NCBI GenBank assembly: GCA_020851565.1
Contig: JADZCN010000031.1
Span: 51,962-115,961, forward strand
Source: Acidobacteriota bacterium
GTDB lineage: Bacteria > Acidobacteriota > Vicinamibacteria > Vicinamibacterales > UBA2999
Reading direction: 5' to 3'
Length of the DNA stretch: 64,000 bases
Shown here one piece after another: positions 13,248 through 15,713 of the stretch; position 1 is the stretch's first letter; every line of letters starts with the position of its first letter. The position numbers and the translations under genes were made by a program. Below the pieces are notes generated by a model. It was not told the origin of the DNA. It was given only the letters and a program-made list of their open reading frames with translations, and did no database searches.

Positions 13248-15713
13248 ATGTCTTCGACCCACACGACCAGCGGTCCCCTCCAGCATCTCGAGGCGGCGCG
13301 CCGGTTCCTGGCGGCCGGCGACGCCGCGCGCGCCATCGAGGCCCTGGAAGGCGTTGCCGCAAGCGACGCCACCGGGCAGGGACTTGCGCTGCTTGGCGAT
13401 GCGCACTTCCTCCAGGCCCGTTATGACCGCGCCGAGGAGGCCTGGCGCGCCGCGCTCACGCGCGCCGGCGTGGACGAGGTGCTCGCGCGGAAGCTCGATC
13501 GCGCGGCCGCCAACGTCCTCACCGCCATCGAGGACGAGCCGCAGGCCCACGTGTTCAAGGAGCGCTTCGCGCGGGACTGGCTGCTGGGCGGGCCGCATCC
13601 GGGAACGGGGTCGGCCACGCCGCCGGCTGAGGAGGAGCCGTCGGTGCTCGACCGGCTGCGCGAGGGGGCCGAGGCGGCGGCGAGCACCGCCCTCAGCGCC
13701 ATTGGCCGCGTCGTCTTCGAGACGCTGGCCGAGCGCGCCGGCCGCATGGGAATCACCGACGGGGTGTGGACCAACTGGCACACCACTGCCGAGAACGCGC
13801 CCGAGCGCCTGCGGCCCTCGCTGCAGATCCTCAAGCTCGCCTTCATGCGGAACTCGCTCTTCGCCAACAACCTGGTCCGGCCCTACGCCGACGGCGAGAA
13901 GACCGCATTCTTCGTGACCGACACGGAGCCGCCGGAGTGGGCGCGCTGGTGGCGCACCGCCGACGGGAGCTGGAACGACCTCCACAAGGACGCCGACGGG
14001 CGCTACGACCCGCTCGTCGGCGCGGCCTGGACCCGGTTCTTCCGCAACGTCGGCGACGACATCGGCCTCGAGTCGACGCGCCCGCGTGACAACCCCGGTA
14101 CCACTCCAGTGAGTGTGCGCGAGCTGTCACGGGCGCTGCTGGCCCCGCGGGGTCCGCGCCAGGAGGTGCCGTTCCTCAACCTGTGGGCGGCGGCGTGGAT
14201 CCAGTTCATGATTCACGACTGGGTGAGCCACGGCACCGCCGACCAGACGACGGTGGCGCGCATCCCGCTGGCGGCGGACGATCCCATGCGGCGCTATGGG
14301 CGGGAGACGCTGGACATCCCCGCCACCCCGCGCGACCTCACGCGACACGACAGCGACGGCAGGCGCCCGCCGACGTTCCTCAACGAGGTCACGCACTGGT
14401 GGGACGCGTCCCAGATCTACGGCAGCGACGAAGCCACACAGCGCGCGTTGCGCAGCGGCATTGGTGGCCGCCTCACGGTTGCCGACGATGGCTGCCTCCC
14501 GGTCGATCCCCGGACGGGCGTCGAGCAGACAGGGTTCGTCCGCAACTGGTGGGTCGGGCTCGCGATGCTGCACACGGTGTTCGCCCGCGAGCACAACGCC
14601 ATCTGCGATCGCCTCGCCGCTGCGTACCCCGACTGGGACGACGAGCGCCTGTTCCAGACCGCCCGCCTGGTCAACAGCGCGCTGATGGCGAAGATCCACA
14701 CGGTGGAGTGGACGCCGGGGATCCTCGCCAACCGCACGATCTACGACGGGATGCGCGTGAACTGGTACGGCCTGCTCACCAAGTGGTTCGGCGGCGACCA
14801 GCCGCGCACGCTCGAGCCGATCTCGATCGGCAGCCCGGAGCTTGGCGGCATCGTGGGCGGGCCCGGGTTTCCGCTCGCGCGCTATGGGCTGTCCGAGGAG
14901 TTCACCGCCGTCTACCGGCTGCACTCGCTGCTGCCCGAGAGCCTGAAGGTTCGTCGCCTGGGCGACGCGCCCGGCACCGTCGCAGAGGAGATCCCCCTGC
15001 TGCGCACCCGCAACGCCGCCGTCAAGCACATCCTGGGCCGGCACGGCCTGGCGGCCATCGCGGTCTCGATGGGCGCGCAGAACTGCTGTGCGCTCGTGGC
15101 GAACAACTACCCGACGCCGCTGCTGGACGTCTCGACGCCCGACATGCCGCTCATCGACCTCGGCGCGCTGGATCTCTTCCGGGATCGCGAGCGGGGCATC
15201 CCGCCGTACAACCAGCTGCGTGCCGAGCTCGGTCTGCCCCGCGTCCCGAGTTTCGACGAGCTGACCGGCGGCGACACCGCGCTCGCGGCCCGGCTGCGCG
15301 AGCAGTACGGGACCGATGCCGACGGCCGCGATCGCGTCGATGACGTGGACCTGCTCATCGGAACGCTGTGCGAGGGGAATCGCCCCGAAGGCTTTGGCTT
15401 TGGTGAGACGCTGTTCCAGGTGTTCATCCTGAACGCGAGCTGGCGGCTGCTGGGAGACCGCTTCTACACCACGGACTACCGGCCGGAGGTGTACACGCCT
15501 GAGGGCCTGGACTGGATCGACTTCACCTCGTTCAAGGACGTGCTGCTGCGCCACTTCCCCGAGCTTGCGGGCACCGGGCTCGGCAACGTCCGCAACGCCT
15601 TCGAGCCCTGGGATGAAGGGCGGCTCGACCCGGCACGCCATCCGACCCGTGCGTTCGACGACGCCCTGGCCGACGATCCGTGGGCGGGCGAGCGGGCGAT
15701 GGGGAAGGCGTGA
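13248..15713 (+). CDS. Animal-type haem peroxidase, fatty-acid alpha-dioxygenase-like, with N-terminal TPR-like region
   Basis: LNLWAAAWIQFMIHDWVSHGT; THWWDASQIYG; RNWWVGLAMLHTVFAREHNAICDRLAAAYPDWDDERLFQTARLVNSALMAKIHTVEWTPGIL...GMRVNWYGLLTK; N-terminal AARRFLAAGDAARAIEALEG repeats. Confidence 0.85.
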   Translation: MSSTHTTSGPLQHLEAARRFLAAGDAARAIEALEGVAASDATGQGLALLGDAHFLQARYDRAEEAWRAALTRAGVDEVLARKLDRAAANVLTAIEDEPQAHVFKERFARDWLLGGPHPGTGSATPPAEEEPSVLDRLREGAEAAASTALSAIGRVVFETLAERAGRMGITDGVWTNWHTTAENAPERLRPSLQILKLAFMRNSLFANNLVRPYADGEKTAFFVTDTEPPEWARWWRTADGSWNDLHKDADGRYDPLVGAAWTRFFRNVGDDIGLESTRPRDNPGTTPVSVRELSRALLAPRGPRQEVPFLNLWAAAWIQFMIHDWVSHGTADQTTVARIPLAADDPMRRYGRETLDIPATPRDLTRHDSDGRRPPTFLNEVTHWWDASQIYGSDEATQRALRSGIGGRLTVADDGCLPVDPRTGVEQTGFVRNWWVGLAMLHTVFAREHNAICDRLAAAYPDWDDERLFQTARLVNSALMAKIHTVEWTPGILANRTIYDGMRVNWYGLLTKWFGGDQPRTLEPISIGSPELGGIVGGPGFPLARYGLSEEFTAVYRLHSLLPESLKVRRLGDAPGTVAEEIPLLRTRNAAVKHILGRHGLAAIAVSMGAQNCCALVANNYPTPLLDVSTPDMPLIDLGALDLFRDRERGIPPYNQLRAELGLPRVPSFDELTGGDTALAARLREQYGTDADGRDRVDDVDLLIGTLCEGNRPEGFGFGETLFQVFILNASWRLLGDRFYTTDYRPEVYTPEGLDWIDFTSFKDVLLRHFPELAGTGLGNVRNAFEPWDEGRLDPARHPTRAFDDALADDPWAGERAMGKA

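Follow-up and report, generated by a model that had tools for sequence, protein, structure and literature searches.

The gene at positions 13248-15713 of the 64,000-nucleotide stretch of Acidobacteriota DNA analyzed here (hereafter the window; contig JADZCN010000031.1) encodes an 821-residue protein, read from an ATG start, that is strongly indicated by sequence comparison to be a member of the fatty-acid alpha-dioxygenase (alpha-DOX) family. It overlaps a gene for a catalase-related heme protein, and adjacency of two such genes was found in several phyla, with fusion of the two in Cyanobacteria and Obscuribacterales. We judge it likely, at a probability of roughly 0.7, that a lipase, the alpha-DOX, and the catalase-related enzyme work in tandem, in this order, as a bacterial oxylipin module, which suggests a bacterial counterpart of the lipid-signal pathways of plants and animals. 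The enzyme family itself is already known; what is new is its architecture with a tetratricopeptide repeat (TPR) and its genetic coupling to the catalase-related partner. Bacterial alpha-dioxygenases are known chiefly as biocatalysts for fatty aldehydes, and we know of no natural pathway to which they have been assigned. All window features described below lie on the forward strand.

Identity and active site of the alpha-dioxygenase

Residues 236-773 of the protein match the Pfam family An_peroxidase (E 3.5e-99). In a search of the Protein Data Bank (PDB), residues 235-790 matched rice alpha-DOX (4kvj) at E 5.5e-92, with Arabidopsis alpha-DOX (4hhr) second at E 3.1e-88; the next match after the alpha-DOX structures was a peroxidase at ~1e-32, leaving a gap of more than 50 orders of magnitude. 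An AlphaFold2 model made with 27 homologs as input (mean pLDDT 81, pTM 0.88) gave the same picture, its top four Foldseek matches all being alpha-DOXs, with TM-scores of 0.79-0.85 by target length. The catalytic core, placed by these three approaches at residues 236-790 (13953-15617), is shared with the two plant enzymes at ~31% identity in structural alignment; NCBIfam provides a family name neither for this protein nor for its partner. The initial annotation, made from the letters of the window, had called the gene an alpha-dioxygenase-like haem peroxidase, which the Pfam, PDB, and Foldseek matches bear out, and the plant motifs that it quoted all occur in the translation. Its remark that bacterial members are little characterized missed two characterized cyanobacterial examples, CalDOX and LepDOX (PMC8720084), which are bacterial alpha-DOXs like the window protein. 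The same paper lists alpha-DOXs in Acidobacteria, Actinobacteria, Proteobacteria, and Bacteroidetes, and its main text contains neither the word "catalase" nor the word "fusion".

Active-site residues were mapped by means of the rice chain 4kvj and an alignment of 59 sequences, and invariance was read from a 27-member alignment. All six residues checked, whose roles in the rice enzyme (H157, H311, T316, Y379, H382, and R559) we take to be established, are kept in the window protein, as in the plant enzymes: the distal heme His323 (14214-14216; rice His157), His484 and Thr489 (14697-14714; rice His311 and Thr316), the catalytic Tyr556 and proximal heme His559 (14913-14924; rice Tyr379 and His382), and Arg733 (15444-15446; rice Arg559). 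Loss of the catalytic Tyr or of a heme His, for which the initial annotation had proposed a check, was thus not observed, with Y556, H559, and H323 all in place. Y556, H559, H484, and R733 are invariant among the 27 members. The distal His is replaced by Gly or Ser in five relatives of the TPR-bearing clade described below (L019, L020, L024, L016, and L044), in agreement with the published finding that this residue is only partly conserved across the alpha-DOX family (PMC8720084). The set of six is discriminating, because the distant cyanobacterial relative L050 keeps only the Tyr and the proximal His, and carries Val, Val, and Gln at the three substrate-side positions, those of His484, Thr489, and Arg733.

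The catalase-related partner

The partner gene (15710-16747; 345 residues) begins with a GTG codon inside the stop of the alpha-DOX gene, the two sharing the four bases GTGA (15710-15713). While right about the alpha-DOX, the initial annotation passed over this neighbor, which recurrent adjacency and fusions link to it. The partner protein has no Pfam match; a profile of six partner sequences finds 3e4w at E 1.7e-23 and then catalases, and the structural model (pLDDT 76) has a catalase fold, with 3e4y as its best Foldseek match (E 2.9e-11). Both entries represent the same 33-kDa protein from Mycobacterium avium subsp. paratuberculosis, itself catalase-related, which is ~22% identical to the window partner and which we take to be an organic-peroxide peroxidase. 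The partner is also homologous to the N-terminal 345 residues of two catalase-alpha-DOX fusions, L046 and L048.

Invariant in the alignment of the partner family are the distal His61 (15890-15892), Arg99, and Arg326, Tyr330, and Arg337 of an RxxxYxxxxxxR proximal motif (16685-16720). When compared with coral allene oxide synthase (AOS), His61 stands for the distal His, Arg99 and Arg337 for heme Arg residues, and Tyr330 for the proximal Tyr, and Tyr330 and Arg337 are spaced as Tyr353 and Arg360 of that enzyme (PMC5617202). Corals possess catalase-related AOS-LOX and HPL-LOX fusions (PMC5617202), that is, a catalase-related domain joined to a fatty acid oxygenase, and 3dy5 and 1u5u are among the Foldseek matches; in the coral fusions, however, the oxygenase is a lipoxygenase, and Thr66 and Asn137 of the coral AOS are replaced in the window partner. 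The distal Asn position is occupied by Thr in the window and L015 proteins and by Asn in the fusions L046 and L048, and the window partner is not assigned as a true catalase or AOS because it lacks this Asn.

Linkage and fusion of the two genes

A Catalase and an An_peroxidase domain are found in a single frame in L048 (Nostoc sp. LEGE 12450, 962 aa) and L046 (Obscuribacterales, 963 aa), and G338 contains a further alpha-DOX/catalase-related fusion, recognized by open frame and position. The four-base overlap of separate genes occurs again in L015, and a catalase-related gene adjoins the alpha-DOX gene in L019, L031, and L050; for L015, L019, and L031, no copy other than this neighboring one was found in the genome. 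A one-frame fusion considered for L015 was rejected, its upstream part being an out-of-frame open stretch and the genes being separate and overlapping.

Among 193 genomes of the window's class, 23 with an alpha-DOX and 31 with a catalase-related protein, the latter is present in 13 of the 23 alpha-DOX genomes versus 18 of the 170 others (Fisher P 1.6e-6). The two genes lie within 5 kb of each other in six of the 13 genomes that have both, compared with 0.05 expected from a rough Poisson estimate; one of the six close pairs (G089) involves a more distant alpha-DOX type with an insertion. A sample of 145 cyanobacterial genomes gave a similar association, with the partner in seven of nine alpha-DOX genomes versus 17 of 136 others (P 4e-5), including two in-frame fusions and two pairs within ~6 kb. 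The catalase-related gene may stand upstream, downstream, or divergent, or be fused, and this variety of arrangement points to the pairing having been selected repeatedly. An old-yellow-enzyme (OYE; Oxidored_FMN) gene was likewise found within ~2 kb of the alpha-DOX gene in 10 genomes, compared with 0.05 expected from the same kind of rough estimate. A literature search, with most subscription papers outside its reach, returned no description of a bacterial alpha-DOX paired with a catalase, or of an oxylipin cluster.

Proposed pathway and alternatives

In the proposed pathway, a patatin lipase gated by a cyclic nucleotide (cNMP), encoded two genes downstream of the alpha-DOX, would free a fatty acid and is thus a possible supplier of substrate. 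The alpha-DOX heme would use a peroxide to generate a radical on Tyr556; His484, Thr489, and Arg733 would hold the free fatty acid while this radical takes the C2 hydrogen, and addition of O2 at C2 would yield a 2-hydroperoxy fatty acid. The catalase-related partner probably processes this reactive product, converting the unstable 2-hydroperoxide at its Tyr-ligated heme before decay, either by splitting it into CO2 and an aldehyde one carbon shorter or by reducing it to the 2-hydroxy acid, lyase and reductase action not being readable from sequence. A probable role of the TPR domain is to keep the partners together, which would achieve in trans what the fusions achieve in cis. A 2-hydroperoxide is known to decarboxylate to the Cn-1 aldehyde spontaneously, without an enzyme (PMC9305512), and the second enzyme should therefore set the product or prevent damage.

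The closest precedent for the pairing is the Nostoc linoleate 10S-dioxygenase, which reportedly works with a catalase-related 10S-hydroperoxide lyase (Brash 2014, cited by title in PMC13049297), a heme dioxygenase and a catalase-related hydroperoxide enzyme as in the window. The relative L050, without the substrate-side alpha-DOX residues named above, seems to resemble the Nostoc kind. The Nostoc oxygenase is reportedly a COX-like 10S-dioxygenase, unlike alpha-DOX. A dioxygenase combined with a catalase-type hydroperoxide enzyme may, as these findings hint, be a recurring lipid-mediator design among bacteria, corals, and fungi. The linkage and fusions name a likely next enzyme, so that two or three recombinant proteins would suffice for a direct test of what becomes of 2-hydroperoxy fatty acids in bacteria.

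Several points weigh against a tandem module. The expected adjacencies ignore shared ancestry, and 10 of the 23 alpha-DOX genomes in the window's class have no catalase-related match. The gammaproteobacterial short-clade loci, a negative control, have no catalase-related (CAT), OYE, RoxA-like, or lipoxygenase-like (LOX-like) gene nearby. The cupin, hydrolase, FAD oxidase, and cyclopropane-fatty-acid-synthase-like (CMAS) genes of the window run are absent beside alpha-DOX genes elsewhere in the set compared. In the alignment to the catalase motif, the partner has Thr for the distal Asn of catalases and coral AOS. Given the spontaneous decay of 2-hydroperoxides, the pathway could in principle run without a second enzyme; and the activities of both proteins are predictions from sequence.

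The alternative that best survives, although clearly less probable than a tandem module, is that the catalase-related protein is purely protective and removes H2O2 or stray lipid hydroperoxides harmful to the alpha-DOX or the membrane, without catalyzing a pathway step. This would suit its closest solved relative, presumably an organic-peroxide peroxidase, whereas the fusions and the parallel with the Nostoc pair favor substrate handover, and Thr at the distal Asn position speaks weakly against true catalase activity. Somewhat less probable again is an enzyme with the alpha-DOX fold that uses a different carboxylic acid, such as one with an aromatic or cyclopropane group, or that works as a peroxidase: the substrate is not readable from sequence, the run includes a CMAS-like gene, and the distal His is missing from some members of the clade, but the window member has all six alpha-DOX active-site residues, and lipases recur as neighbors. 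That the run serves general oxidative-stress or respiratory housekeeping, with the lipid genes adjacent by accident, is improbable, since the NDH-2-like flavoprotein and cytochrome c that would fit such a role are outweighed by alpha-DOX linkage to catalase-related and OYE genes, which in one class greatly exceeds chance, and by linkage to the former again in a second phylum, together with gene fusions.

Beyond the tandem module favored here, a broader pathway can be proposed only tentatively: a modular, multi-phylum oxylipin route that would parallel the cascades leading to eicosanoids and jasmonates. Its parts would be a cNMP-gated phospholipase, an alpha-DOX sometimes joined by a lipoxygenase-like enzyme, a catalase-related enzyme that converts the hydroperoxide, and an OYE reductase, and TPR docking or fusion might channel the unstable hydroperoxide under cAMP/cGMP control.

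The N-terminal TPR-like domain

Compared with the plant enzymes, the window protein has ~140 extra N-terminal residues, which include a TPR-like helical domain at residues 10-92 (13275-13523). AlphaFold2 places helices at residues 10-22, 26-33, 44-55, 59-73, and 77-92, with a pLDDT of 93-97 for the block, and residues 46-73 match the TPR pattern as read from the sequence (L-G, Y, A, W, A spacing). The TPR score of the window protein alone is below threshold (TPR_19, E 0.06); TPR_2 was matched in eight of 27 homologs, with a best TPR E of 4.9e-9, and TPR_16 exceeds its curated cut-off in the homolog L017. The TPR-like extension anticipated by the initial annotation is thus corroborated by confident helices and by significant matches in homologs, and the N-terminus, for which disorder had been raised as a counter-indication, is predicted to be ordered. 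The 15 proteins with the extension form one clade (support 0.97), with members from Gemmatimonadota, Actinobacteria, Chloroflexi, Troglogloeales, Saprospiraceae, and Rubrivivax, among others. The domain would be suited to a docking role, and the clade, together with its members lacking the distal His, would inform how alpha-DOXs are activated. An amphipathic membrane helix considered at residues 133-168 or 189-207 found no support, the hydrophobic moment being no higher than in shuffled sequences.

The gene run in the window

Unlike the plant genes, the window alpha-DOX gene stands in a bacterial operon-like run, of nine same-strand genes (5525-19786), beside the catalase-related gene. The run opens with an NDH-2-like flavoprotein bearing a C-terminal cNMP-binding domain (5525-7117; Pyr_redox_2 3.1e-22, cNMP_binding 9.2e-20), similar frames to which lie near alpha-DOX genes in L068 and L070. 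It is followed by a diheme c-type cytochrome with two CxxCH motifs (7122-9461), a remote RoxA-like protein that scores 18.1 bits, below the PF21419 cut-off of 26.7, and has short collinear matches to the RoxA-like protein of L019 (E 4e-4); RoxA-like relatives near other alpha-DOX genes exceed that cut-off. Next come a Cupin_8/JmjC-like protein (9480-10571; Cupin_8 5.7e-38), an alpha/beta hydrolase (10725-11729, in a frame that opens at 10578), and an FAD-linked oxidase (11788-13212; FAD_binding_4), and, after the alpha-DOX and catalase-related genes, a cNMP-binding patatin phospholipase of the NTE type (16786-18621; cNMP_binding 6.6e-20, NTE_Ploop 3.3e-33, Patatin 1.1e-25), a gene of which kind also precedes the alpha-DOX in L068, and a CMAS-like methyltransferase (18650-19786; CMAS 1.1e-42). 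Recurrence at other loci backs only the alpha-DOX, the catalase-related gene, and the patatin, with weak backing for the cytochrome and the NDH-2-like gene; module membership of the cupin, hydrolase, FAD oxidase, and CMAS-like genes is unproven. A promoter and terminator scan of the run gave nothing above chance.

Neighbors and variants at other loci

Patatin lipases recur beside alpha-DOX genes, and in Humibacillus overlap the alpha-DOX start. RoxA-like diheme cytochromes also recur beside other members of the family; away from alpha-DOX, catalase-related and RoxA-like genes are adjacent at G040:C7:142812-145047 and G114:C56:7-2359, and may form a unit of their own. At L057:2431-5595 (G093), one frame of 1054 aa combines Oxidored_FMN (6.4e-65) and alpha-DOX (7.7e-106), and RoxA-like genes follow.

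Lipoxygenase-like proteins accompany the alpha-DOX in all six mycobacterial loci, in Rubrivivax, and in L071, and one (PF00305 ~1e-7) directly follows it in L020, L022, L023, L024, L047, L049, and L019. Conserved in these proteins are a His-rich motif and the residues NINA at the C-terminus, and they have Gly four residues past the conserved second-helix His, where lipoxygenases usually have Asn. Adenylate/guanylate-cyclase-AAA proteins occur beside the alpha-DOX in Mycobacterium, L045, and L071; this signaling-type cyclase-AAA ATPase adjoins it at L020:6177-9320, L071:6945-9998, and in L045, and is divergent in the mycobacterial loci.

Three variants of the enzyme itself were observed. Pseudomonas-type alpha-DOXs (L032, L033, L036, and L038-L042) have a conserved C-terminal extension of ~300 aa with no Pfam match; a divergent type of ~950 aa with a large core insertion is found in L008/G018, G063, G089, and G122; and the Iningainema alpha-DOX (L043:9848-12691) has a C-terminal extension of ~300 aa that is unrelated to the catalase domain.
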